A stretch of 64,000 bases of DNA from Hydra vulgaris (lineage: Eukaryota; Cnidaria; Hydrozoa; Anthoathecata; Hydridae), in NCBI RefSeq assembly GCF_038396675.1, contig NC_088924.1:33941501-34005500 (forward strand), written 5' to 3'. The stretch's first letter is position 1. The number at the start of each line of letters is the position of its first letter. The notes under the pieces are model-generated. The model was not told where the DNA came from. It made no database searches and saw only the letters and a list, made by a program, of their open reading frames with translations. Below, one piece after another: positions 1,030 through 60,426 of this stretch. The translations under genes and the position numbers were made by a program.

Positions 1030-3315
1030 ATTTCCAAAAGATTTATCAATTTGGAATAAATGGGTTGCTGCAATGCGTAGAGAAAACTTTAATCCAACAA
1101 AGAGTTCAAAAATGTGTTCCAAGCATTTTACTCAAGAATCTTGTATTGTTTGTGGTTGGAGTTCAAATAAGAAACTTAAAAAAGATGCTATACCAAGTAT
1201 TTTTGATTTTCCAAGCAGTTTAGTGAAGCTAGTGAAATCTAGAAAACCTCCAGAAACTAGAGCAATTATCACAAATGAAAGTAAAAACATCAAAACAATA
1301 AACAAATAAAACAATAAGTGAAACAAGTGAAAACATAATCAAAACAATAGAAGAAGCTACACCTGTAGACAGAGAGAAGTTATTCGAACTATTTGAGAAT
1401 TTGGAAAAAACAGCCTTAAAACCTCTTCTAAAAAAGAGAAGATATTTAACAAATGATTTGAAAAAACATTTTTTACGAGATGGTCATTCTTTTAACGAGG
1501 CTTTAAAATTAATTTCAAAGCAAAAAAAAAATCAAAATTCTACAGCAATGAAACAGACGACTTCAACACATAGTTTTTAACTCAAACTCTTTGCTTAAAC
1601 ATTTAAAGGAAATACAAATGATTGATGAAGAATCCTCCCTTAAACTTTCTGTAAGTTTTTATAGGTTATTTATTGTGGGTGATTTATTATTACAGTTAAT
1701 TTATTGTAGGTGATCAGTTAATTTATTGTAGATGGTTTATACATATTTTTATTAGACTGTGGTATGTATTTAAGCTTTCCATTCATTTGAGTTTATTTTT
1801 ATTTTTTTAGTTGATAGTTTATTACTTGCTTTATTTTGTAGGATACAATCCTATTTAAACAATTGCTTAAATCTAATTGCATTATAGCGTATCCAATGGA
1901 ATTGAAAAAATTTGCATATACTCTAAATTTTTATTCTCCAAAAGCTTATTTATATATCAGAAAAGCATTTTCTAACATGCTTCCTCATCCAAGAACCCTT
2001 CAAAAATGGTATCTGGTAATCACATGTGGACCTGGACTTCAATCTGAACCAGTTAAAGTATTGAAACTGAAATCAGTAGAACTAAAAGAAAATGGAAAAT
2101 CATGTATCTGCTCATTAATGATTGATGAAATGGCAATTCATAAGAAAATAGAATAGTATGGAGAAAAGTTTTTAGGGTAGGTTGTGTTAATATATTTAGA
2201 TACACAAAATTTAAATTTTTTATTTATATAAATAAAAAATTTTACAAATATTTTAGTTATGTTGATATTGGTTCGGAACTAAAAGGCAATTCTAAAGTTG
2301 AAGCAAAAGAAGCAATCATGTTTTTGATTAATAGTTTAAATGATGCATGGAAGTTACCAATTGGCTCCTTTCTAATTAATCAAATCTCAGGAGTTCAAAA
2401 AAGTAATTTCGTAAAAATGTGTTTAAAAATATTAGGCGAAACTTACATTACTATAGCTAGTTTAACTTTTGATGGTGTTTCTTCTAATATTAGTATGGCT
2501 GATCATCTTGGAGCAGATTTATCAGTTAACTCTACTTGCACATCCAGTTACAAAAAAGTCAGTTTATATTATAATGGATCCTCCACACATGTTAAAACTT
2601 ATAAGAAATACATTTGGTATGTACAAAATAATATTCGATTGTAAGAATGAACCAATAAAATGGGATTACATTGAAAAATTAGTAGCTATTCAAGAAAAGG
2701 AAGGTTTCCATTTAGCAACAAAAACATTTAGTCAAAAAGTTGCAAAAGCAATAGAATATTTAAGAGAAAGTCAGTACTTAAAAGATTTTGAAGACAGTGA
2801 AGCAACAGAAAAATTTATCATTAACATTAAGAACATTTTTGACATTTTAAATAGCAGAAATTTATTAGCTAAGAATTTTAAAGAAAGTTTTCAACAATAT
2901 AATAAAGAAACTATTTTCAAAGCAATAAGAGAGTCAATAGAATATTTAGTGACACTTAAATGTGCTAACAATGGAGAACCTATACATTTAAGTCAGAGAA
3001 AAACAGGCTTTATTGGGATGATTGTAAGCCTTTTATGGGAATATGGAACGATTATGTTCAAACTGGTGATTGTAGTTTAAAGTATTTTTCTGCCTGTAAA
3101 TTATCCCAAGACCATTTTGGAGTTTTTTTTAGTGCCATAAGGAGCAATGGAGGATATAACAATAATACCACATCAAAAGAATTTCTGCCTACAAAAAATT
3201 ATTAATGCACACAAGTGTTACAGGTTTTTATCAGGCCAATTGCATTGAGCAAGCACCATCGATATTTTTAGCAATTAGTACATTTAAAAATATTAAAATG
3301 AAAACAATTGATCAT
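1030..3315 (+). pseudogene. THAP/P-element-like transposase, 5' and middle part (broken)
   Basis: Relic of a P-element/THAP9-type transposase. The first readable exon (from about 1030, after TTGTAG) shows the second half of a THAP zinc finger, with W..W..A spacing and CSKHF near 1114; the upstream C..C half is missing. A charged stretch follows (about 1340-1580). The exon from about 1843 carries the P-transposase core: SPKAYLYIRKAF, a W..PG motif and DEMAIHKKIE, where the normal next residue W is a TAG stop (2154-2156). Later come TFDGVSSNI (about 2468), DPPHMLKLIRNT (about 2577) and LSQDHFGVFFSAIRS (about 3100), in three frames, so there are frameshifts near 2550 and 3020. The gene is cut at 3318 by a large palindromic insertion and continues at 10573. 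The family normally makes a nuclear DNA-cutting transposase; this copy is dead. Confidence 0.85.
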
Positions 3316-11145: not shown

Positions 11146-14100
11146 CGTCACAAAGATTAGGAGTAAAATACGAAATTTTAAACGTTGCTGATAAATTTTA
11201 AGTATGCTGTACAATAAGTTGCGTTGTAACTATAATAACACTTATATTTAAATAATATAAAAGTGTTGAGTATATATATATATTTTTTGTTACTAGAAAC
11301 ATGGCTTTCGGAGCCGCGGGGGCCACAGCCCCCCAAAGGACCTTTTTTGAATTTTGCAAGAGGAATTTTTTTGATTTTTTGTTTGTTTTTGTCAAATATT
11401 TTTGTTAAACTTTGTTTCTGTAAGTAAAAATGGGTAGAGGGAATAAAAATTCCTTGTTCTACATTTCGAATTTTAAAGTTATTAGAATGTAATATTCTTT
11501 TTGTATTCGAAATGTAATCGAATTTTTTTGGCAATATTTATCAAAAACTTTTTAATAAATTATTTATCTTAGTGTTTATAATTATGTAATGATTTGCTAT
11601 TTTCAGATTTTAATATAAATTATCTGATCTTGTAAGTGATAATAAAACTAGTTCTGAAACTGAAAAATTATGGACTTAAAAAATGAATCCTCTGTATGTG
11701 CATTGTGTGGTAAAATGAAATTAGAAGGAGATTCGTTGAGCCAAGTGGGGGCAAGATTTGGAAGGAATGTTGATAACCAAGGAGCTCTTGGAAAATTATT
11801 TGAATATGCTTTAAAATTGGATTTAAATGTATTGGTAAATGAACTGAATAAAAAACAAGAGACAGGAGAAAAGGTTTTTACTCACTCATCGTGTCGAACT
11901 AAATTAAGAAACCAATCAAAATCAATTAAACGATCACAAGCATCGATGGAAACTCCTATTGAAAGAAAACGTTCAACTCGATCAGAACAGATTTTTGTTA
12001 ATTTTAAAGAGCAATGTTTTTATTGTGGAAATATGTGCACACTTGACAGTCGCCATCCTGAGAGAAATAATTTCATAGAAGTAAGAACAAAATCATCAAA
12101 AATTTATCATGCAACTCTAGAATTATGCAACGAACGTAACGATTTTTTATCTAAAACAGTTGAAGCTAGACTTTTGAATATAAATGATCTTGTAGCTGTT
12201 GAAGCACGATATCACATCTATTGTCGTGCAAAATTTGAAAAACCTATTACTACATCAAGCTGTGGAAGACCAACATCAACAGAAAAGCTTACTGTCTTTA
12301 ATGCAGCATGCATAAAACTTGAGGAAGATATTGATCTATACACAGTCTCTGAGTTTTACGAGATGATGCAAACATTAGGAGAAGAAATATATTCCCTTAA
12401 AATGACGCAAAATAAATTAAAAGAAAAATACGAAGATTCTATGCAATTAGTCTCGCGACAAGGTAAAAGTAATGTAATTATACTGGACAGATTTAGACAT
12501 ATATTATGCGAAAACTGGTACACCAGAAAAAAACACAATGCAGAGGACGAAAAAATCAGAGTTATAACTGCAGCAGCAAAATTATTGAGTGATTGTATAA
12601 AGAATTTTGACCATGATGTAAAAACGTATCCTTTAATAGAAGATGTAACTAACAATGAAAACACCTGCATACCCTTATTGCTGAAGGTGTTTATCAGAGA
12701 ACTAATTCCTGTGCCATTAAAACAAACGTCAATTTAACAAGCATTGTTTTCTGCAGTGAGGCCACAATCAATAATGCCAATGCAGTTAGGAGTAGCCGTT
12801 ACCGTTGATAATGTACTTTCTTCCAAGTGGCTAAATGTTCTACTTGCTAAACTGGGTTTTGCATCAAGTTACGACGAGGTTTGTTTATTAAGTGATAATT
12901 TTATTTGTATTTGTTTTTTAAAAAAAATTTTACACATAACAATATATAATACAAGAAAAACTAAATTTATTTAACAGGTCATTCGTTACAAGCAGAACAT
13001 AGTGAAACACAATAAAATTAACGATATACTTTGCCCTGAAGTTACAACATCTATTCAGTTTGTTGGGGATAACACAGATCATGATTTAGCAACAATTGAT
13101 GGTAAAAATACACATCACGGATTAGGTTCCATATCAATTGCAAATGGAAATTTTATTGAGAACTCAAATAAGAAAAGATTGCCTAGGGATAAAAAAGATT
13201 ATTGGTCCAACATAAACTTTGACAACCACATTACAATTTCTCAGTTTTACAGCTCTGACGTTTCGGTTTTATCTCAAATAAAATTTCAAGAATTTACAAA
13301 GGTATTTACTTGTCTGGGGTTAAGAGGGATAGCGTTTCAAAAAATTAGTGTTTAAATTTCATGTGCAGCTTTAAAATATAATAAAAACTTCTATAGATAC
13401 AATTTATTTTGAGATTTTTGATGATATGAGACAATCATTAACTTTTAACTTTCTTTTATTTAAGGTTACTTTAAAGTCAAACCTTGTCGATATACTTTGG
13501 AACATGTCGCATATCTTTGAATTACAATGCCCAAGTTGGGCTGCCTACATGAGTCGTCAAGTTAATGATGTTCTTCCTATTTCTAAAGTATCCATGCTTC
13601 CAGTAATCAACTTACCGGCAACTGATTTTAATGCTTTATATTCTTTGTTAAGTTTCGTTGTAATACAATCAGAAAAGCTAAAACTTGGAATGCCATGTGT
13701 TACATTTGATCAACAGCTTTATGTGAAAGCCTATGAAATTGCGGCTTCAAAGAAAATGAAAGTTTTTATTAGAATTGGTGGATTTCATCAGCTAATGAGT
13801 TTTCTTGGAGCTATTGGAACATTGATGGAAGGAAGTGGATTAAAAACTGCTCTTGAAACTGTTTACGCTTCCGCTTCAGTCAACCACATGTTTTCTGGAA
13901 AAGCAATTTCTCGAAGTCTTCGAGGCCATATGTTTGCTGCATCTTCTATCTTATCTATATTGCTGGAGGAAGTTTGGGTTGAACTAAGCGATGAAGAAAA
14001 AACTGAAATTAAATTAATGTACAGCTCAAATATGTATAACAAAAATGGCGACACTGACCTTGAAAAGAAGTTAATTCTATTATTTGAAAAAAAGCAAGAA

Positions 14101-16773
14101 GAATACATGGCAAAATCACGAACTGCAAAATTATGGCTAAACTATGTTCACTATATATTTATTGTACAAGAGTTTATTCGAGCGGAAAGAACTAGTAACT
14201 GGAACCTACATATTGCTACAACAAAATGTATGCTAAAACTACTTGCCTCAACAGGGCACAATAATTATACAAAATCATTACGTTTATATTTACAATCAGT
14301 GGATGAATTAGCATGCACTCACCCAGAAGTATATAAACAGTTCCTCAATGGAGAACATACAGTAAGGCGCACTTCAAAGAGTTGGTCTGGAATATGGACT
14401 GATTTATCAATAGAACAGATATTAATGAAATCGTTAAAGGGCAAAGGAGGAGTTGTTGGCAGAGGAATTACTGAAAATGTTTTACATGTTTGGTCAAGTA
14501 CAATGCATAGGTAAAAATAAAATTAAATATTTATTGTTTCGTTTACTTGGAATTTGCTAATAAAATAGATATTTCCAGCAAAAACTAAATGGGGCAAATA
14601 TTTACAAATATAGAAATAATATTTTTTATCAAGGTGCGCTGAAATGACAGAAGCAATAAATTCATTAACCTCGCCAAGAAACTCAAATAAAGAACACAAA
14701 GAACTTTGTGCGGGAAGGATTAGACGTGACTCTGAAGATTTTCAAAAAATTAAATCATGGTTTGATTCTCATAGCCCATTTGATGTAAGAGAACAACTTG
14801 AGGCTCTGGACTCAGGGCTTGTAGATGAGTTTAATCAGGTGACTTGTGATTGTTCGGAAAGCATTGGTGCATCAATACTGGCACAAATGAATGATATGAC
14901 ATACACAGAAGTATCCTTCAGAAGGAGTAATCAACTCAAAAATCTTCAAGGACTGTACTCAAATGTTAAAGTCAACAATGAAAATATATCAGTTGATCCC
15001 TTGACATTGTTTTTGCGTTTATCAGTTATCGTTGAGAAAAAACCAGAAAAAGAAATTGAAGACTACTTTTACTATGAACTAACTTCGTTCCCTATGTCAC
15101 TTTTTAAAGATGGTCTTATGCGCAGTGCTCAAAAACACAAGCTGAAAAATTACCTAACAAAGCCAGTTATATCTATGCCATTTGCTCCTTATTCTTTAAA
15201 AGTTGCCGATGGTGGCGCTCTTTTATACTGCTGCGATTGGAACAAGGGTGAAATATTTGACAATATTTTTGAAAAGTACATCCAATTTCTTAATTACCTT
15301 AAAGTTAGTGTAGTAGTATTCGATGGATATGAAAATTCTACAAAAGACGCTACGCGTATAAAGCGTGGATCTTTATCACAATTTGCAGTTGAAATACAAA
15401 AAAGCAATCCTTGTCCGTCTGATAGAAGTAAATTTTTCTCAAACTACGCCAACAAAAAATCATTTATCCGAATTCTAGAAGTTAGATTAAGAGAAAGAGG
15501 TTTTACTGTGTATGTGTGTCATTCTGACGCAGATACTACAATTGTTAAAAGTGCACTTAACTTTTCCAAAACAGAGCCCGTCACAATATTTGCTGATGAC
15601 AGCGATATTCTTTGCCTCTTATTACACCACTGTAAATCAGTTGAATCTTTACACAAAATATATTTAACAAGTATGACAAAAAGAGTTGATTGCCAGCGTG
15701 AATGTTATGACATTGATCAGATTATTGGCAGTACAGCAGAACATGTCATTAACAATATTCTTTTTGCGCACGCATTTACAGGTTGTGATACAACATCAGC
15801 AATTCACAATTTTGGAAAGACTTCAATTTTTAGAAAGCTTGAAGCCAAAGACTTGTGCAATGCAGCAAATATTTTTTACCATGATGATAAATTGCCTGAT
15901 GAGATTGAAAATGCATCAATTCGTTTCTTTCAGCTGCTACATTCCTCAACATCAAATCTACAACAAATACGAAAGCAAAAGTACGAGGAAATGATAAACT
16001 CAGATCGAGCTCACATAGACCCTTCTGTTCTTCCACCATCTCCTAGAGCTGCTTACTACCATGGATTGAGAGTATATCATCAAGTGCGTATTTGGAGATG
16101 TCTAAGTGAAATTGATCTTGACCCACTTAATTGGGGATGGAAATTAAATGGCTTTATGTACTCACCAATAGCGACAGATGAAAACGCAGGTCCAGAGGAT
16201 ATCCTAAAGGTTGTTCAATGTGGGTGTAAAAACTCCTGTTCGAGTCGATGTTCCTGCAGAAAGATGGGACTTCACTGCACTTCATCGTGTGCTACCTGTC
16301 ACGGGATTAACTGTACAAATATTGAAAAAGTTGATGAAGAAAATGAACCAGCCCATGACCGTCACTTCTCAGATGTTTTTACATAAATTTTAATTTAATC
16401 AGAATAAGTAAGATAAACTTAATGCATAAAGATAAACTTCTTTGTAAATATTTTTTAACATGCTCTTGGTAACATTACAGAATAATTACGTTTAACAGTA
16501 TTTTATATATTCTGAATATATTTGTTTTGTAAACACATCTTTAAGTCAAATTTTCAAAAAAGTAGCGTCCCCCTCTGCCTTTATACCGTACTTTTACTTA
16601 TTATTATTTCGCTTTCAGTTCATTAAACCAACTACTAATACTTAGGAGTAATAAATATAAAAATATATTACATTTACTTGCTTAAATTATAAATTCTTTT
16701 AGTAAAAAAACGTCAATTTTGGTGCTTTTCTGCTAATCTTTATGACGTCACAACTTTTTTTCCCCAAAATAAA
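11121..16773 (+). mobile_element. Academ-like DNA transposon with TGACGTCA-bearing terminal inverted repeats
   Basis: The segment 11121-11160 (TTTATTTTGGG, seven A, then GTTATGACGTCA) reappears inverted at about 16732-16773. Weaker similarity extends about 30 bases further inward on both sides. These repeats enclose one large spliced gene (11670-16386), so I read them as the terminal inverted repeats of a 5.65-kb element. The palindrome TGACGTCA lies in both repeats. I cannot see a clean target-site duplication. Class assignment rests on the encoded protein (see gene). Confidence 0.65.
11670..16386 (+). pseudogene. Academ-like transposase with XPG-like nuclease domain, one nonsense codon
   Basis: Four exons fit perfectly in phase: 11670-12878, 12978-13301, 13465-14510 and 14634-16386. 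Together they have 1444 codons with one internal stop, TAA at 12735-12737 (SI-stop-QA). From the N-terminus: two C-x2-C...H-x2-C modules (C10, C13, H72, C75; C116, C119, H182, C185). A DDE-type core follows, with GDNTDHD (residues 433-439) and VTFDQQLY (D593). Next is an XPG/PIN-like nuclease with VVFDGY (D1090), DADTT (about 1159) and ADDSDI (about 1181), then HAFTGCDTTSA (about 1239). The tail has nine cysteines (1389-1420). A transposase with an XPG-like nuclease and a Cys-rich finger is, from memory, typical of the Academ superfamily, first described partly from Hydra. The product would cut and move the enclosing element in the nucleus. I chose the first ATG after the 5' terminal region. 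Alternative: an unnamed relative with the same nuclease. Confidence 0.7.
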
Positions 16774-31883: not shown

Positions 31884-32911
31884 CTGAATGAATTTGCAGC
31901 CTATCCTTCTCCATTTTTGGGAAAATACAAAACTTCTTTGTACATACTTGGAAAAAAAAAGAAACCACTGACCAGATTGACATAGGAAATAGAAAAGGCT
32001 ACGTTTAAGTTAATTGCATCTGTTAGAATATAATTTTAAAACATCTGTTAAAATATAAAGATGTAAAATATAAAGATGTAAAAATACTGAATAGTTAGTG
32101 TTTAGATTGACTTTCAATTTGAAGCACAAATCTGTCATTATTAGAGTTAAGATTGATCAAAGCCTTTTTATCTCTTTAGAAAACAAATTAAATATATAAT
32201 CAGAGGATTATAAAATATAAAATGATATTGGTATACTGAAATTATTTAGTTCATGGTTTGAAGCATAAGTGCTGCAAATCAAGCGCTTTAAAAGACCTTA
32301 CATCATTGGTATCGGAACAAGGTATGCGCAGTGCAGAACAGGTGGCTTTTTCCATAATCAATGAAAAAATGAACATAGAACACGTAAATTAAGATGATTT
32401 TCTTTAGCCAACTGTAGACAACTTCTGATGATAAGTTGGTCGTCCTTAGAACATTGGAGACAGAGATAAAATCTAGCAAATCCCTTTTGAAATATTCAAG
32501 CAACTTCGAATAAATCTTAATCTTTCTAACAGAGGAACTATAAAACTATTTTCAAATCTTAACAAGGCCACAGAAAAGAGAATTTTCCAGTCAGAAGTGA
32601 TAAATTACTTTTAGGTTTTGAATTTCAACTGTATAAAGTTGTTACGGTGTTCAGTTCATGAAATTTAAATTTGGGGATAAAAAGAATAATAGAAGCCTGG
32701 TTTTTGTAAAAGATTCTTTAATTTTCTTTTGTATATTTTTTTATGAACGTTATAAGTTAGAGAGTATTGAATATAATTACGAGTATCAATTAATGGAGGT
32801 GGAGTTTCTTTGAAAGTATGTGTTAATGTCTTTGATGCAGATAAACTTGAATTTAACAGTAATAATATAGAGGAGTAAACGTCAGGATCAGACTAAAATA
32901 TTGGGTCTGGT
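31884..32911. other. Stretch without recognised genes
   Basis: AT-rich. No domain or repeat recognised. A 66-residue minus-strand frame at 32303-32503 has no support. Confidence 0.35.
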
Positions 32912-33139
32912 GTGCAACATATACAATTTACTGCTATTGCTGAAGATATTCCTGAAACATTTCAAAATATAAAGCAGTTTTTAGATTTTACCCAGATCGA
33001 TAGCCTGGATTTTCATATTGCATGGGATTTGAAGTTGGCTAACATAATTATGGGCTTATCTGACCAGGGTGGCATCCATGAATTTTTAGAGACTCAAGTG
33101 GGATTTCAACGTGATTTATTCGTGATTGGATTAATATAA
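32912..33139 (+). pseudogene. Relic fragment related to the transposase at 44.4-47.1 kb
   Basis: Open stretch of 75 residues with IAEDIPETFQNIKQFLD, then FHIAWDLKLANIIMGLS. This aligns with ETHSNLTVLTEKLQ and SLASDLKLINILLGIS in the gene at 44402-47057, around its putative second catalytic Asp. Here the residue before that Asp is W and the following zinc-type CAWC segment is missing. A lone piece of a second copy of that family; no ends seen. Confidence 0.45.
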
Positions 33140-33224
33140 AAAAACAAATTTAAAAAATAATAGAAAGAATGTTATAAAAGGTGACTTTTAGATTTAGAGG
33201 ATTTTAGAGGACTTTTTTTATAGG

Positions 33225-33455
33225 TTTAATGCCCATTTCAATAATTCGACACTTGTCGGGTTTAAACAAGGGTCAATATGCCATATTGACTCAATTCTAT
33301 ATAACTCAAAACTTGGCATCTTCGTGAGGAACTACAGAGACCTTCAAGTATTAAAATTTTTTACATCCAATACTGAGTTTCATAACTCTTTGCTTTACAA
33401 TCAAGAGCTTGCTGACACGTTTCACGAAAGTATTGATTCTGAAGATGAAGAATAA
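33225..33455 (+). CDS. Open frame of unknown nature after a possible splice acceptor
   Basis: From TTTTTATAG at 33215-33223 the frame stays open for 76 codons to TAA at 33453. It reads FNAHFNNSTLVGFKQGSICH and later NTEFHNSLLYNQELADTF, ending in an acidic SIDSEDEE. It has no ATG, so it could only be a 3' exon. It starts inside the left inverted arm of the 33187-34230 element. Not recognised; it may be the last exon of an element gene or chance. Confidence 0.3.
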   Translation, partial: FNAHFNNSTLVGFKQGSICHIDSILYNSKLGIFVRNYRDLQVLKFFTSNTEFHNSLLYNQELADTFHESIDSEDEE

Positions 33456-33946: not shown

Positions 33947-34355
33947 AGCACTATTCTCTAAAAAGATAAAAATTTAATCAGATCTCCTTTTAACTTCTCT
34001 TTTAATATTTATTTCATTTTTTCATGATAGTATAATGTTAAAAATTCTTTGTCTGCAAAACTGGTTAACGTCTATTAAGGTATTGGGTTTTAAAAATTTA
34101 GAAAATTTTTATATCATTTATCATAAATATGGCATGTTGACCCCTGTTTAAACCCGACAAGTGCCGAATTATTGAAATGGACATTAAACCTATAAAAAAA
34201 AGTCCTCTAAAATCCTCTAAATCTAAAAATACGTTTTGCAGTTTTGCAAGATAAGCCCTCTAAATTAAATGCAAAATCTCTCTAAAATCTTTTAAAATTC
34301 TCTTTTTCTTATAAATATTTTATGTAGCCACTCTATATTCAAAAAGGCTTCTTGC

Positions 34356-42890: not shown

Positions 42891-43415
42891 AATTTTTATT
42901 GCATACTTCAAAACCACTTTAATAAAGCATTAACCATCACAAAAGATATGATTAAAAATTCGACTTGAAAACAACAAAAATATAGTGTCAATACATATAT
43001 ACTTTATATACAAAAATGCTTTTTTTGTTTTAATTTATCCGCGTTTGCTTTTTTAAGGAAATATAAAGTGACGTTCAAAATATACTATAAATTTACAGTT
43101 TCAATAGCGGATTTTTGATTTTGATAAAAACCAATTAAAAATGAACATTTGAATTTTTATTAATAAATTAGATCATAAAAAAATTGTAATGTTTATTTGA
43201 AATCTGCTAAAATATTTTGTTTGCAAAATAAGAGGTTTGAAATTCTGCGTACTAATGAAATCTAAAATAAGCAAAGAATGAATAAAATGATCAAGTTTAG
43301 CACTAATATTTTTAAAAGTCACCAAGTTAACAATATTTTAAATTTTTTTTTTTTTTTTTAATATAAAATACTCTTTTTAATTAAAAACATTGAAATTTTA
43401 AAATACTATAACTTC
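42891..43415. other. Stretch without recognised genes
   Basis: AT-rich, with a poly-T run near 43341-43361. Nothing supported. Confidence 0.4.
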
Positions 43416-46400
43416 GCACAGGTCAGAAATTGGCCTTTTAGGTTTGATTTTGGAACACCCCAAATATTTATATAGATTCTTTATAACAAACCTTTAAGCT
43501 TCACAGAACTGTTAAAATTAAAATCCTGATGGTGGCACATTTTCTGAAAAACCATTTAAAGTGGGGGAACCTACAAAATTTCATGTTCAAGTAAAGAAAC
43601 TTCCTGAAATAGTGCAAACCTTAAATTATTGCATACTAATACTAACATCAAATAATGATTTTCTGTCAAAAAAAAATTAAAAATAAAATCTAGGAACATG
43701 GAATACACAACGTTTTTGGGGCACCGACCCCAAATGGGGCAAATAAAAAAATTAAAATTTTTTTTTTGTACAATCTCATAGGTAATCTAACTTTGTTCAT
43801 AGAACTCAAATTTAAAAAAAATATAAAATTACAGTTCAAGAGTTATGACCAAAAAACTTTTGATCCCCCTCCCCTTTTTAAAAAAATTAGAAAGTTTGAA
43901 ATTTTAAATAACCATAACTTCTAAAGTGCACATAGTTTTTTTATGAAACTTGAAATTTGTCAATGAATTTCTATTTGGGCTAAGAATTAACAAAAATATT
44001 TTTTCAAATGCGTAAGCCCCCTCAAACGGGGCAGTTTTCCTGAATTTTGGGGTACTCTTGTTCGAAAGCTTAAATCGCAGCTATTTTTGGGATACTTCTC
44101 TTTTTTATTAATACCAAGATTTACATACAAAATAATATGTTTAATAATATAAAGATCAACTTAGAGTTAGCTCAGCTTTTATTAGTACGTATTACTCAAC
44201 ATTTATTACTACTTGTTAGTTGTTTATTGTTATTTAAAAATTTGATAGATATAAATAATGATGACTAACTACATTCCAACAAAGTTATTTGATTTATTTA
44301 AATTAGAAGAAATTAATATAAATTTATTTAATTAAAGTTCACTTATAAATTTTGATAAACTATTAATACTTTTAGTAAGTATTAAAATTAAAGAATTCAT
44401 AATGCCTCATTTAATGTCGAAAGAAGGAAGAAGATTTAAGTTCAAAAGATCTCATAAGTTAAACAGGCTTTTAGTCTGTGCTTGTTGCTTTACTAAAAAC
44501 ACTAAGTGTATTCCAGTTACAGAAAACTTGGAAAGGCTTGTTGTAAAGCATTGTCACAATGACTATAGTATGAAAGTAATGAAGTATCCAGCTGGGCTAT
44601 GCCTTACGTGTAAAAGAAACTTGTACTTGGTTAAAGCTGGAAAACCTCTTTCAACATCTGTTAAACAGAAATGGAACAAGAAATCTTTAAGCAATATCTA
44701 CTGCGATAGGAGCTGCAAAAAATGTAAAATTTGTAAATTGGCAACTAATAAAATCTCAGGTTCTATATTATGCTTCTTTTTTAAAAATTAGTTAAAATTA
44801 AATTCATTAAACAGTTCTTTAAATAAATATAGACAAATAAAACAAAAATAATATAATTTCAGAAAAAGTTGGTGTTTACAAGAGTTCAAATGTTGCTTGC
44901 TTAAAGATTTGTCAAAAATGTTTTCACGTTATTGGTAAAGGTATACGCCATAAATGCTACCCTCGAAAGCAATCAAAGAATCTGGCAACTTATGTATTAA
45001 ATAAAGATGTTAACGTAAAATATTTATCTAAATATTATTATTACAACTAATTTTTTAAATCAGAATGTTTCTTATTATTATTATCTCATTTGTAAAACAG
45101 TTAGGTTTTACAGCTTTCACTGTATTGAGTAGGTTCAAGGCCAAGTAGTGTCCAATATTCTGAAAGGTTTATATTCCAATAATGAAATGGAAAAAGGTGA
45201 AGAAATGTTGTGTTCGACTGGTAAAATGTTAAAAAACTTGCTTTCTTTTTACATATTGGAAAATGTTTTGCCTTTCTAAAAATTTTTGTCAATTATATAG
45301 GTGGTTCTAGAGTCCCTATAACTTTAGGTCAAACTTGTACGAAACCGATAGAAATACCATTTTCTGAGTTTAACAAGTTAGTTGTTTGTTTGCAACTGAC
45401 TCAGTTCAAATCTAATGTACTCTTGAAGACTTTCCGAAAAAATGGAGTTAAGTTTGAAAGTAATATGGAAAAGAAATTGGATGATAAAACAAAAATACTT
45501 AAGAACTTCTATGCTTTACAAAACGTTTCCTTTGAGGAAAAAAAGAAAGGTTTAATAAATAATGTAAAAAGAGATTTAGTTTATGTAAAAGATATTACAG
45601 AGTATATTAAATTTGTAATTGAGTACAGAAAGCAAGATCTCTTCAGTACTTTTGTAAGAGTTGGCATAGATTCAGGTATGAGCATTTGATTTGTAATAAT
45701 ATAGATGGATAATAAACTATAAATTTAAAGAATAATGAGTAAATAAAAACACCTTAGGTGGAGGTTCAATGAAAATTATTGCAAACTTGTTTAACCCAAA
45801 CCAACACAAACAGAATAACCGGAATGATAGGGGAACTTACTCTGGAATAAATTCTGCGCTTCGATTGGCATACTGTGAAGATATGCAAGAAACACATAGC
45901 AACCTCACAGTATTAACAGAAAAACTTCAACTTCATAATTGTAAATATTCTCTTGCATCTGACCTTAAACTCATAAACATTTTGTTGGGAATTTCGGTAA
46001 TTAAATTACTTGAAAACCTCCCAATTTATTTTATAAAGGAAATGGAAATTTAAGGAAATTTAAATTTTGTATATATATATATAACTATTTATATAACTAA
46101 AAAATATTTATAGACTCATGGTGGAAAATACAGTTGTGCCTGGTGTGATGGGGAAGCTGTTCTGAAATCTGGTCAACTTAGAAGCTTCGGAGACCTAGAT
46201 AACTATTACCGCCAGTATGCTGATGCAGGTTTTCCTGAGAAACAAATGATGAATTTTAAGGTTACCGTTATTTATATATTTGTAATCTAATAAAAAGCTT
46301 TTTATACAAAACTATCGTGTTCCATTTATTTTTATTCAGAATGTTGTGAAGCCTTGTCTTATAAAGGAAGACGATCCTGAGAAGCTAGTAATAAGCATAG

Positions 46401-47873
46401 TGCCTTTACCAGAACTTCATCTTCTCATGGGTTTGGTAAACCACATTTGTAATTATATAATACCACTCTGGGAAGGTTTAAAAGATTGGGTTAATAGTCT
46501 TGGTGTTATACGGAAAGGTTATCACGGAGGTACATATGACGGTAATGTTTCAAGAGCAATATTGAAAAATGTAGACAGTCTTGCATCACGAATTCCAATA
46601 AAGTTTTTCCCTTTAGTTGATACATTAAGGATGTTTGACAGAGTAGTTACTGGTACATTTAGTGAACCACTAGATCCTGAGTATCACAAGCTTATCCAAG
46701 ACTTTACAAGAAGTTTTGAACATTCTCAAACATACTGTTCAGAAGTGAGTACAATAAAAACTCGTTATGTTTAAAACTTCTTTAAATTTGAATAATTTCA
46801 TTATAAATACTTATATATTTTAGTTCTTGAATAAAAGTCTCAGCGTGACATGGACAGTACATGCCATAAGCGCTCATCTTGGAGCCTTCATAGATATGCA
46901 CAGCTGCTCTCTTTCAAGATACAATGAACAATCAACAGAAGCCTCGCACCAAAAAATGAAGTTTGTTGTAAACCGATTTAATGTCTCTGTCCTTAGCTCG
47001 AAGCATGGTGACAGAAGTAAACGAATTGCTGAAACTTTTTCCAGCATGAACATGTAGTTATTGATGTTTTAATATTCTTTAGTGAACCTAAACAAAAAAT
47101 AATTACTAAAAATAAAGGGGCTCACAATTATTTGGCATTTTGAAGAACAAAATATTTTTACACAAAGTCATAGTATGGTCATAAATAACAAATCTGTCCT
47201 AAAAATAGCTGCAATTTAAGCCTTCGAACCAGAGTACCCCAAAATTTAGGAAAACTGCCCCGTTTGAGGGGGCTTACGCATTTGAAAAAATATTTTTGTT
47301 AATTCTTAGCCCAAATAGAAATTCATTGACAAATTTCAAGTTTCATAAAAAAACTATGTGCACTTTAGAAGTTATGGTTATTTAAAATTTCAAACTTTCT
47401 AATTTTTTTAAAAAGGGGAGGGGGATCAAAAGTTTTTTGGTCATAACTCTTGAACTGTAATTTTATATTTTTTTTAAATTTGAGTTCTATGAACAAAGTT
47501 AGATTACCTATGAGATTGTACAAAAAAAAAATTTTAATTTTTTTATTTGCCCCATTTGGGGTCGGTGCCCCAAAAACGTTGTGTATTCCATGTTCCTAGA
47601 TTTTATTTTTAATTTTTTTTTGACAGAAAATCATTATTTGATGTTAGTATTAGTATGCAATAATTTAAGGTTTGCACTATTTCAGGAAGTTTCTTTACTT
47701 GAACATGAAATTTTGTAGGTTCCCCCACTTTAAATGGTTTTTCAGAAAATGTGCCACCATCAGGATTTTAATTTTAACAGTTCTGTGAAGCTTAAAGGTT
47801 TGTTATAAAGAATCTATATAAATATTTGGGGTGTTCCAAAATCAAACCTAAAAGGCCAATTTCTGATCTGTGC
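43416..47873 (+). mobile_element. Unplaced TIR transposon with 675-base inverted repeats
   Basis: The left repeat 43416-44090 begins GCACAGGTCAGAAATTGGCC and recurs inverted, near identical, at 47199-47873. The repeats include the GGGGAGGGGGATCAAAAGTT segment. Between them lies one spliced gene in the same orientation. Such long, nearly identical inverted repeats and a mostly open gene suggest recent activity. I see no clear target-site duplication outside the ends. Confidence 0.85.
44402..47057 (+). CDS. Putative DDE-type transposase of an unplaced transposon family (seven exons)
   Basis: Proposed exons: 44402-44759, 44863-45014, 45301-45675, 45758-45996, 46114-46260, 46340-46744 and 46824-47057. 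All joins are in phase except exon 2 to 3, where I could not find a donor giving the right frame (mis-set boundary or a frameshift). N-terminus: basic, with CACC and CxxC-H-CY cysteine clusters in exons 1-2 (CDRSCKKCKICK; CQKCFHVIGKGIRHKC). Core: RVGIDSGGGSMKI (first Asp), SLASDLKLINILLG (second Asp), a CAWC zinc-like motif, VPLPELHLLMGLVNHI, and SRYNEQSTEASHQKM (candidate Glu) near the end. This order fits an RNase-H-like D-D-E enzyme that would mobilise the surrounding element. I cannot match it to a named superfamily from memory. A relic lies at 32912. Confidence 0.7.
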
Positions 47874-48189
47874 ATACCATATGGTAGACCTAGTTAAAAA
47901 ATAGGTAGACTGAGGTAATAGGTAGGTAGGCTATAGGAAGACTTAGGTAAAAAATGCAAGGTTCTAAATGAACACAATGTTATTTTGTTTGCAATAATCA
48001 ATTATGTAAATAACAAAATTAAATGAAAATATATATAATTAAAAATTTATATATGTATATTCTATTATATAAAATATACATATATAAGATTCTGTTATAT
48101 ATTTATATGTAATAGAATCTTGAATTCTAGTATTTCTGGAAAACTAGGAATATTATGGTGCAAAAATAAGAGTTGCTCTCCAGTTTTGG
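47874..48189. other. Stretch without recognised genes
   Basis: Contains a purine-rich run of GGTAGACTTAGGTAA-like words (47880-47960) and TATAT-rich sequence (48030-48110). Nothing coding seen. Confidence 0.4.
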
Positions 48190-56616: not shown

Positions 56617-59600
56617 TATATGGGTAATTCCGCATCAAATCACCCAAAATTTAGAAAATTTTGAACCATGGGTTTTCAAATTTTTTAAAAACCTCTTTGG
56701 CTGTTGCATCTTAAAAAGAAAAGTTAACATTTAAAATTTTAGCTAAAAATGTTGAGAGGTTGACAAGATACTGCAATTTTAATATTGACCTGGTTTCCTA
56801 AAATGACCCGGTTTTCATAACACTCTGAAAAAACATTTTTCTTAAAATAATAAGAAATAAAAATGGCAAAAACATGAAAATAAACATATATAATGTTTTT
56901 TTGATGCTGAATTCAATAAATGTACTTAAAATGCTAAAATATAAAAGGAACATGCTTAAAAATTAATAAAACAACTAGTTTCTATAAAACAACTTTGGGG
57001 CCCAATATCTCAAAGTACCCCCATCGAAAAAAAAATTTTTTGCTGTTAATATTTTCAGCTGTTTATAATCTTACTAGGCACAAAAAATCTAACTGTAAAA
57101 ACGACCGAAACATACGGAACTTTAATTTCAAAGATGTATCAAATTTTCAATAAGCTATTTTAAAAAACTTTCAAATAGAATTCTCTAAAATATTATATTT
57201 AGTTAAAAGACTCCTTAAAAAAAACAAACAATTTTGTTATATTTAAGGAAGTCTTAATTATATGATAACTTAGTTATTTGAACTTAACAACTGAAAAAAA
57301 CATCCTGTTTTGTTTTATATAAAAACTGAATTGGTGTGATATGGATGTGCATTTGTTTTTAAAATTTTGACAACTTTTGTAAAAGTTTATTATTACAAGT
57401 TATTACAATTGTGCAGATAAGCTATATACAACTAAACATACAATTATACTATATACAAAATACATAAAGCTATATGCAATTATATATACAATTCGATTAC
57501 TTTTAAAAAATCTTAGAGTAGTTACGATAAATGAGTCACAAGACATGATGAGAAGTAGCTTAAATATTGCTCCTGGGAAGAAACTTTACAAACCCTGTAA
57601 GCAAAAGATTGCCAAAAAAGCAGATCTTAAAAAAGAGAAGCAAAGACAGGGTGAATAAGATGAAGATTTTCTAATATCATCATTCAAATCAAAAAGACAG
57701 GAGATCAATGAAGAACTTGAAAATTTTGATATATCTCCTCTGAAATCTCATTCAAAGTCATCAAAACATATACTCTCAGAAGGAAAGCGAAAAGTTGCGC
57801 GCATCAACGAAATGGTAAGTAACCTTACTAGAAAAACTGAAAGTCAATTCAATGTTCCCTCAAAACTGTGTTATGAACCAAATGACATTAAAAAGAAGGC
57901 TGAAAACTTTGATGAAACTATGAGCTTGATAAAAGAAAAAATTCTATGTTCTGACAAAAGAATTATTGTTCAACTTCTAACACTGGCACCCCCAAGTTGG
58001 TCAATATTAGAAGTACAAAATAACTTTGCAGTTACAGAATACCAAGCAAAAAAGGCTAGACAACTTTTTAATAAAAAAGGATTGTTGGCTACCTCACCTT
58101 TGTATAAAGGGAAAGTCTTACAAAAAGAAATAGAAGATTCTGTTAAACTTTTTAATGATTCAAGTGATTTATGTCTATGAATTATGCCTGGAAAAAAAGA
58201 TTATGTTAGCATTCAAAAGAACGTCCATAAACAAAAAAAACTGCTTTTGTGTAATTTAAAGGAACTATATTTATTATACAAAGAAAACAATCCGGAAATA
58301 CAAATAAGTTACTCAAAATTTGCTTCACTTAGACCAAAGTGGTGCATTTTGCCAGGTGCAAGTGGTACACATTCTGTTTGTGTTTGTTCTTATCACCAAA
58401 ATGCCATATTGCTAGTAGATGCTTTAAATATTGGACTAAAGTATAAGGACTTACTTTCAAAAACCGTTTGCTCAGTAGAAAACAAAGAGTGCATGCTTGC
58501 ACAGTGTGATGATTGTCCTGGTAAAGAACCCCTCACCAAATATTTGTATGAGATTTTTGGAGAATACGAAGATGATTTTGAGATACACTACAAGCAATGG
58601 CAAACTACTGACCGTGCAACACTATTAAGTTTAACAGCTGATGTTTCAACGTTTGTTGAACTATTAGCATCTTGTTTTGAAAAGCTACAAGCTCATTATT
58701 TTATTGCTCACTCTCAATCACAGTACCTTAACCAACTGAAACAATATATGGATCAATCAAACATTATCATTATTGGCGACTTTGCTGAAAATTATGCTTT
58801 TGTTGTCCAAGATGAAATACAGAGCTATCATTGGAACACCCAACAATGTTCTTTACATCCATTAGTCATATACTATAAAGATGATAAAGGTGAACTGAAA
58901 CATATTTCTTACTGTTTTATATCAGATGACATTATACATGATGTAACTTATGTGTACAAAATATTCCAACTAATCATACCAATATTAAAAATAAAATTTT
59001 CCAATTTGTCCAAATTACATTTATTCACTGATGGTTGCGCAGGACAGTACAAAAATTGTAAAAGCTTTTACAATCTATGCCAACTAGAAAGCGAATTTTG
59101 CCTTAAAATTGAATGGAACTTTTTTGCCACGTCCCACGGAAAGTCACCATGCGATAGGATTGGTGGTACTGTAAAAAGATTAACAGCACAAGAAAGTTTA
59201 AAACGACCGTACAGAAACCAAGTTCTCACATCAGAAGCTAAGTATGAATTTTGTATTGATAAAATCAAAGTTGTTAACTTCATTTACATAAAGGGATTGG
59301 ACTTACAATTGCAACGTGAAGAGCAAAAAGAAAGGTACACTGGTGTAACAACTCTACCTGGTACTCGTAGCTTTCATCAATTTATACATCTTGGAGATAA
59401 CAAGGTTGGGGCAAAGAGGTGTAGTACAGACACTAATTATACAATAATCCACAATCTTAAAAAGAAACAAGACATATCTCAACTTGATACTGTCACTTTA
59501 GGTTGTTATGTCGCTGTAGTCTGTGATGATAAGTGGTGGATCGGCATTGTAACTAAAACCAACTTAGAAGAAGTTGATGCTAAAGTTAAGTTTCTTCATC

Positions 59601-60426
59601 CAAATGATCCATCAATCTGTTTTAACTGGCCTGAAAGAGACGACTACTGTTTTATTCCAAACACCAACATATTGAAAAAACTATCTGTTCCACAAGCTTG
59701 CTCTAGTTCTGGTAGAAACTATGTGTTTGAAAATGCTGAAATAGAGGAAGTACAAGTAAAATGGGAGCAATATTGTAAACTATTACAAACACAGTCAAAA
59801 TAACTTTCATCTTTGATACCTTTACAAATCTTGTATATTTAAGTAACTTTTTAAAGCACGATTAACTTTATTTTATTTACAAATATTTTTTGGGAATTTC
59901 TTGAAAAAGTAATACATCTTTGAAATTAAAGTTCCGTATGTTTTAGTTGTTTTTCCAGTTAGATTTTTTGTGCCTAGTAAGATTCTAAACAGCTGAAAAT
60001 AATAACAGCAAAAAAAAAAATTTTTTTGATGGGGGTGTTTTGAGATATTGGGCCCCAAAGTTGGTTTATAGAAACTAGTTGTTTTATTAATTTTTATGCA
60101 TGTTCTTTTTATATTTGAGCATTTTAAGTACATTTATTGAATTCAGCATCAAAAAAACATTATATATGTTCATTTTCATGTTTTTGCCATTTTTATTTCT
60201 TATTATTTTAAGGAAAATGTTTTTTCAGAGTGTTATGAAAACCGGGTCATTTTGGGAAACCAGGTCAGTCATAAAATTGCAATATCTTGTCAACCGCTAA
60301 ACTTTTTTAGCTGAAATTTTGCATGCAATATTTTTTTATAATTAGGAATAATGTGTCAAAATATAACACAAAAGGAAGACACATGGTTCAATGGACTGGG
60401 TGATTTGATGTGGAATTGCCCATATA
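56617..60426 (+). mobile_element. Unplaced TIR transposon with about 0.53-kb inverted repeats
   Basis: The left end TATATGGGTAATTCCGCATC recurs inverted at the right end (TATATGGGCAATTCCACATC, ending 60426). The inverted similarity extends inward to about 57150 and 59890. The flanks ATCATTTTA and ATCATTTA are nearly the same and may be a decayed target-site duplication. One long gene lies between. Older than the 43.4-kb element, since the arms differ at many sites. Confidence 0.8.
57545..59803 (+). pseudogene. Putative transposase of an unplaced family, two nonsense codons
   Basis: One continuous frame of 753 codons from ATG at 57545. It is interrupted only by TAA at 57656-57658 and TGA at 58178-58180; the frame continues on both sides (SSDLCL-stop-I then MPGKKDYVSI). 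The N-terminal 200 residues are basic, with PGKKLYKPCKQKI at the start. A zinc-like stretch follows: GTHSVCVCSYHQN and cysteines around CMLAQCDDCPGK (about residues 275-325). The catalytic-looking core has IIGDFAENYAF (D412), LFTDGCAGQYKN (D496), then FFATSHGKSPCDRIGGTVKR (D537). A C-terminal segment with KWWIGIV and FNWPERDDYCFIP ends it. The order suggests a D-D-D/E RNase-H-like enzyme for the surrounding element. Superfamily not recognised. Relic relative at 20637-21545. Confidence 0.75.

Follow-up and report, generated by a model that had tools for sequence, protein, structure and literature searches.

A transposon of probable Chapaev type with long inverted arms and an eight-exon gene in Hydra vulgaris

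Introduction

To which kind of transposon does a Hydra vulgaris element belong when it carries long terminal inverted repeats around a single gene and its protein is recognised by no Pfam model? The element lies in a stretch of 64,000 nucleotides of contig NC_088924.1 (C5:33941501-34005500 in the genome searched here, 911,502,276 bases in 15 contigs), referred to below as the window. A first-pass annotation, made from the letters alone, described it as a transposon of a family that could not be named. The family can be placed, because its ends, its 4-bp target duplication, the order of its motifs and its profile similarity point to Chapaev. As judged from sequence comparison, the element is probably a Chapaev-type cut-and-paste DNA transposon within the CMC/CMCT clade, and the wider assignment of the family to the CMC clade is very likely correct. 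Most likely the family is a member, new or already catalogued, of a known kind of element, the Chapaev-type CMC transposon; CMC elements including Chapaev-3 are already known from Hydra, according to the available part of PMC12220107.

Ends, copies and target-site duplication

The inverted arms occupy positions 43416-44108 and 47181-47873 and are 693 nt each and 98% complementary. The first-pass annotation rightly called them near-identical, at a length of 675 bases that measurement corrects. Alignment with other copies sets the bounds of the element proper at 43417-47872 (4456 bp, CACAGG..CTGTG).

43417..44108, + strand: left terminal inverted repeat, beginning CACAGGTCAGAAATTGG, with the true end at CACAGG as read from the copies
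47181..47872, - strand: right terminal inverted repeat, ending GACCTGTG in most copies seen and GATCTGTG in the window copy

Genome-wide, the arm has at least 43 matching stretches at 72-100% identity, a lower bound (40 of 116 candidates scored) that includes the two arms of the window and pieces of single arms; with 43 matches, the arm recurs far beyond chance. The comparison of genome-wide copies that had been proposed to define the ends and the target duplication gave CACAGG..CCTGTG ends and, for 12 of the 15 copies examined at both ends, a 4-bp duplication without mismatch. These 15 are the window copy and 14 of 20 fetched loci; loci showing one end only (L019, L022, L024, L025, L026 and L028) were left out of the count. 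Eleven duplications were called by script and one, L013 (AAGT), was added after its mutated end was read by eye, while that of L021, which lies within a TA repeat, carries little weight. An 884-bp short copy (L023 499-1382) has the same ends with TTTA on either side and is presumably a deleted, non-autonomous form.

Gene structure and spliced protein

A single gene lies between the arms, with eight exons, seven GT..AG introns, every join in phase and a product of 665 amino acids. An alternative donor of intron 2, which ends exon 2 at 45008 instead of 45014, gives 663 amino acids. Earlier, seven exons with one join out of phase had been described; the splice model contains all eight, and an overlooked exon 3 of 88 bases probably explains both the lower count and the bad join.

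44402..44759, + strand: exon 1, N-terminal cysteine clusters (Chapa-like finger by motif only)
44863..45014 (or ..45008), + strand: exon 2, from the splice model
45133..45220, + strand: exon 3, from the splice model
45301..45675, + strand: exon 4, candidate first catalytic Asp D323 (codon 45669-45671)
45758..45996, + strand: exon 5, candidate second catalytic Asp D393 (codon 45961-45963)
46114..46260, + strand: exon 6, C(2)C motif C412/C415
46340..46744, + strand: exon 7, LH motif L479 H480 and a Chapaev-like YHGGTYDGN stretch
46824..47057, + strand: exon 8, H(4)H motif H601/H606 and candidate catalytic Glu E627 (codon 46938-46940)
46926..46928, + strand: codon of E623 in exon 8, alternative candidate catalytic Glu

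In L052, a relative of about 50% identity, the translated pieces are interrupted at five positions shared with the breaks of the gene, and the region matching exons 1-3 is uninterrupted, with no breaks at those joins (both by eye).

Relatives and conserved motifs

The genome search returned relatives at 31-97% identity besides the window, some of them families with an uninterrupted main frame. Two sister families, L029 and L047, are about 33% identical and have the same kind of ends and 4-bp duplications. The L029 family has CAC..GTG ends, and of its 12 copies 10 carry 4-bp duplications that match; the exceptions are L045, where no duplication matches, and L036, which runs into N. The L047 sister has CAC..GTG ends between CCAA and CCAA (one copy, by eye). 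Scans of viral contigs and genome contigs, started from short exact peptide patterns, found no relatives.

The first-pass annotation had proposed a plausible D..D..E set, and alignment to the relatives agrees with it, the named D, D and E stretches being conserved there. The rows of alignment A2 that cover them keep D323, D393 within AxD(L/M)K, C412-x2-C415, H601-x4-H606 and E623-Q-x2-E627-x2-H. Covering rows also keep L479-H480, except L053 (Y for H), and YHGxxxxGN, except L050 (Q for H). By eye, E627 and not E623 lines up with the Glu stretch of the Hydra Transib L056. The first-pass annotation was right that the window element is a DNA transposon, and this conservation supports its DDE-type motif set.

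Towards the N-terminus the window protein carries cysteine clusters, and a similar stretch is found in an upstream frame of L029 and L047. A CxxC followed by P..CxxC..NLY was read by eye, as a motif only, in the window protein, L052, L029 and L047. A zinc finger named Chapa has been described in Chapaev, Chapaev3, TransibSU and RAG1 (PMC4411706, in the part available). That the window protein has a Chapa finger may be taken as a lead, not a result.

A further frame adjoins L062 and matches the A2 profile with a score of 127 (E 4e-18); it has D1, D2 and C(2)C in common with the window family and no Pfam match of its own. At this locus, a finger-like frame (2287-2652, + strand; CFLCMRK..GICDTC) adjoins a Transib fragment and is followed by the matching frame (2622-3191, + strand; LGIDGGGDF..SCDLKVANI..CTWC, E 4e-18). 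The two frames form a further lineage of the same transposase group, beside the Transib fragment.

Placement within the CMC clade

The hallmarks of Chapaev, in the portion of PMC4079192 that lists them, are a 3-4 bp duplication, CAC/GTG ends, a DDE set, C(2)C, LH and H(4)H, and those of CMCT elements, in the accessible text of PMC12730594, are C(2)C, H(3-4)H, CA..TG ends and 2-5 bp duplications. The CMCT features are present as CACAGG..CCTGTG ends, 4 bp in 12 of 15 copies, and C412/C415 with H601/H606. The Chapaev features are present as CAC/GTG ends, 4 bp in copies other than that of the window, and L479-H480 and H601-x4-H606 beside C(2)C. The motif order D, D, C(2)C, LH, H(4)H, E is also the order published for Chapaev and CMCT in the sections of both papers available.

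Named families in Hydra offered a second line of comparison. DUF1280 has been equated with Chapaev and DUF1258 with Mirage (PMC3985635, as excerpted), and both groups were later placed under EnSpm by Repbase (PMC4455052, as excerpted). At E<=0.001 the genome holds at least 150 DUF1280 matches (150 of 291 candidates scored), 12 of DUF1258 and 24 of RAG1. Using hhalign, A2 scored 44.7 (E 9e-5) against the DUF1280 protein L066, where the best of 20 shuffles reached 23.4. The two DUF1258 proteins gave 27.0 (L068; best of 20 shuffles 24.5) and 17.5 (L070; 21.8), and the Transib L056 gave 20.4, with 18.7 for the best of 20 shuffles and 26.3 for its own reversed sequence. Four other frames of the window scored 16.3-20.5, and their shuffles 21.3-24.0. 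Against an alignment of four DUF1280 rows the score rose to 52.8 (E 9e-6), over the YHG..GN and E stretches; here the C(2)C of the window protein pairs with cysteines of a PHD-like finger, a pairing taken for chance. Among the three branches compared, Chapaev, Mirage and Transib, these profile scores make Chapaev the best supported. The first-pass annotation had named a strong match to a known superfamily as the outcome that would count against an unnamed family; a match, to Chapaev, was found at the profile level and is of moderate strength only. L066 itself carries a PHD-like finger after its LH stretch and before its E stretch (Pfam PHD E 0.0005, below the cut-off).

General profile searches gave little. 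The spliced protein, its relatives and alignments A1 and A2 had no usable match in Pfam, NCBIfam or PDB, which marks the lineage as diverged; the strongest sub-threshold matches were DUF1258 (E 0.0073) and PpnN_C (E 0.018), in one relative each. The Pfam search of the spliced protein, a check proposed at the outset, returned no family at E<=10. Its silence agrees with the earlier statement that the protein does not fit P, hAT, Tc1, pogo, Harbinger, MULE or piggyBac, whose Pfam families are unmatched at that threshold; it excludes hAT, P, Tc1/pogo, Harbinger, MULE and piggyBac only weakly, since diverged members can escape and the Chapaev relation was missed too.

Several observations weigh against a Chapaev-type placement. 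Neither Pfam at E<=10 nor NCBIfam has a model that matches the window protein, and no PDB chain matches it, whereas Pfam does recognise the Hydra DUF1280 and RAG1-like proteins. In PDB the A2 profile found only three zinc-cluster chains (E 0.7-0.9), and A2 is shallow, with 9 rows and Neff 2.5. A second alignment that pairs the D1, D2 and LH stretches with DUF1280 is weak (E 0.0013, probability 18%), and by eye L066 has neither C(2)C nor H(4)H where they would be expected, so that it is not a close sister. The profile comparison took in a single Chapaev family, Mirage with two proteins and Transib with one; on EnSpm/CACTA, Plavaka, ESTA and Lanisha the Pfam scan alone bears. As for the duplications, that of L017 matches at 3 of 4 bases, and L020 and the window copy show no match.

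These points bear on where within the clade the family belongs. It might form a separate, perhaps unnamed CMCT lineage, either sister to Chapaev or between Chapaev and Mirage or another CMC branch. The missing Pfam and NCBIfam matches and the modest DUF1280 similarity would suit such a lineage, as would a weak DUF1258 (Mirage) match in the relative L051 (E 0.0073, 16.3 bits against a cut-off of 33.1), the score of the Mirage protein L068 slightly over its shuffles (27.0 vs 24.5) and the restriction of the profile comparison to Chapaev, Mirage and Transib, short of EnSpm and Plavaka. The ends, the 4-bp duplication, C(2)C, LH and H(4)H nevertheless agree with Chapaev as published in the consulted part of PMC4079192, and Chapaev scores highest of the three named lineages compared, which leaves a separate lineage a doubtful though arguable alternative. 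A bolder proposal joins the window family with both sisters, L029 and L047, and with the frame adjoining L062 in one undescribed deep CMCT lineage that has 4-bp duplications, C(2)C, LH and H(4)H and retains a Chapa-like finger. We consider it rather unlikely; if true, the finger-plus-core architecture, presumably inherited by RAG1, would be more widespread than is now known.

A Transib/RAG1-type transposon appears highly improbable. By eye the E and GN stretches of the Hydra Transib L056 are alike, its hhalign score of 20.4 lies slightly over the best of 20 shuffles (18.7), and the Chapa finger is also described in TransibSU (PMC4411706, available part), yet reversed L056 scores 26.3, above the forward sequence. 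The duplication is 4 bp rather than the 5 bp that the same excerpt gives as typical of Transib, and the window protein has no Pfam RAG1 match, whereas Hydra Transibs do. PMC4411706, in the text seen, draws the Transib superfamily more widely and counts Chapaev itself among its clades, which is a difference in naming. A Chapaev-type element within the CMC clade is the reading carried forward below.

Flanks of the window copy

The window copy has no target duplication, its flanking bases being TTCG on the left and CATA on the right.

43413..43416, no strand: left flanking 4-mer TTCG, within an interspersed repeat and with no right-hand duplicate
47873..47876, no strand: right flanking 4-mer CATA, within a different repeat

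The 300 bases left of the element lie in a repeat with at least 39 other matches at 74-86% identity (40 of 426 candidates scored). In three fetched copies this repeat reaches the junction and continues past it, and the continuation is unlike the right flank of the window copy. The three matches to the right-flank repeat that start at the first base of the flank were fetched; all continue leftward, element-free, as ATATATAACATA, and they read ATATATAA-CATA-(C/G)CATATG. Compared with the left flank of the window copy, the leftward continuations show short matching stretches only, none at the junction. Because the flanks belong to two different repeats, the two ends of the window copy lie in two different insertion sites, TTCG and CATA. 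Later recombination between two copies is the simplest cause, and an assembly join error may also produce such mixed flanks. A similarity over 37 bases (84%) had suggested that the left flank might derive from an earlier copy of the inverted repeat, an idea dropped when the flank was seen to belong to an interspersed repeat.

Age and activity of the family

The first-pass annotation took the near-identical arms and the open gene as signs of recent movement. On their own they are no such sign: both arms travel together at each move, so that their similarity gives no insertion date, and dating by arm divergence was rejected on this ground. Across 12 copies (without L022, whose sequence meets a run of N and lacks the right end) pairwise identity is 95.5-97.7%, and the copies form a star without close pairs. 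A frame-changing length difference was found in at least one exon of all 12 other copies tested, L022 included, and in none of the window copy; these calls are alignment-based, and single cases can be wrong. Star and broken copies fit a family that spread in one burst and has decayed since.

That the window copy itself moved recently and is active seems unlikely. It is the only one among the copies compared with all exons open, and it is the closest to the majority, at 11.0 differences per kb against 13.2-24.6 in 11 others. On the other side, its 6 synonymous and 13 non-synonymous coding differences lie near the values of the broken copies, which range from 1 synonymous and 22 non-synonymous to 8 and 18, and such counts are too small to show constraint on it; it also lacks a target duplication and is flanked by two different repeats. 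With the star at 95.5-97.7%, the claim of recent movement is not supported, and the window copy, still readable, looks more like what an older burst left behind in rearranged form.

Proposed mechanism and significance

What is observed comprises the ends of the element, 4-bp duplications at copies other than that of the window, a spliced frame that stays open and the conserved motifs; a cut-and-paste route can be proposed beside these. The N-terminal cysteine-rich region would bind the long inverted repeats. The putative DDE site (D323-D393-E627) would then excise the element and join it to the target with a 4-base stagger, repair of which would leave the 4-bp duplication.

A transposon without a Pfam match can thus be placed from its ends, its target duplications and the order of its motifs. 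Through the placement, a clade with kinship to the V(D)J recombinase ancestor gains further families, along with a finger-like N-terminus in a cnidarian.

Other features of the window

Positions 32255-33088 hold a decayed relative of the same transposase group, seen as tblastn pieces of L029 and L047 at up to 39% identity. Directly downstream lies a 75-base inverted repeat (33213-33287 and 34126-34200, 95% complementary, 838 bases apart), which is perhaps a small non-autonomous element. At 2469-3080 a frame strongly matches TNP-like_GBD (PF21788, E 1.3e-29); we take it to be a remnant of a P-element-like transposase. Three long same-strand frames at 11670-16386 (355, 362 and 580 amino acids), with no Pfam match at E<=0.01, are possibly one multi-exon element. 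The sole match of a 539-amino-acid frame at 58184-59803 is a weak one to the MORC2 chromo-like domain (E 0.0016, under the cut-off).

Comparison with known systems

EnSpm/CACTA elements have CACTA ends and a Transposase_21 domain. Like the window element, they belong to the CMC clade and have CAC..GTG ends, but they make 3-bp duplications, as given in the available part of PMC12730594; here they were compared by Pfam scan alone. Transib/RAG1 shares the order D, D, C(2)C, LH, H(4)H, E and has an E stretch that is alike by eye, and it differs in the 5-bp duplication of Transib against 4 bp and in a profile score under that of the reversed control. Mirage duplications are 2 bp. Mirage (DUF1258, PF06869) shares the CMC clade and a D2 followed by C(2)C, and differs in that only one relative gives a weak match and the profile score is marginal.

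From Chapaev the window element differs in that its protein has no Pfam DUF1280 (PF06918) match, in its 693-bp arms and seven introns, and in showing no PHD-like finger, whereas the Hydra DUF1280 protein L066 has such a finger and lacks C(2)C. It resembles Chapaev in its CAC/GTG ends, in a 4-bp duplication that falls within the published 3-4 bp, in the D-D-C(2)C-LH-H(4)H-E order, in the YHG..GN and ExxGExxH-like stretches and in its cysteine-rich N-terminus.

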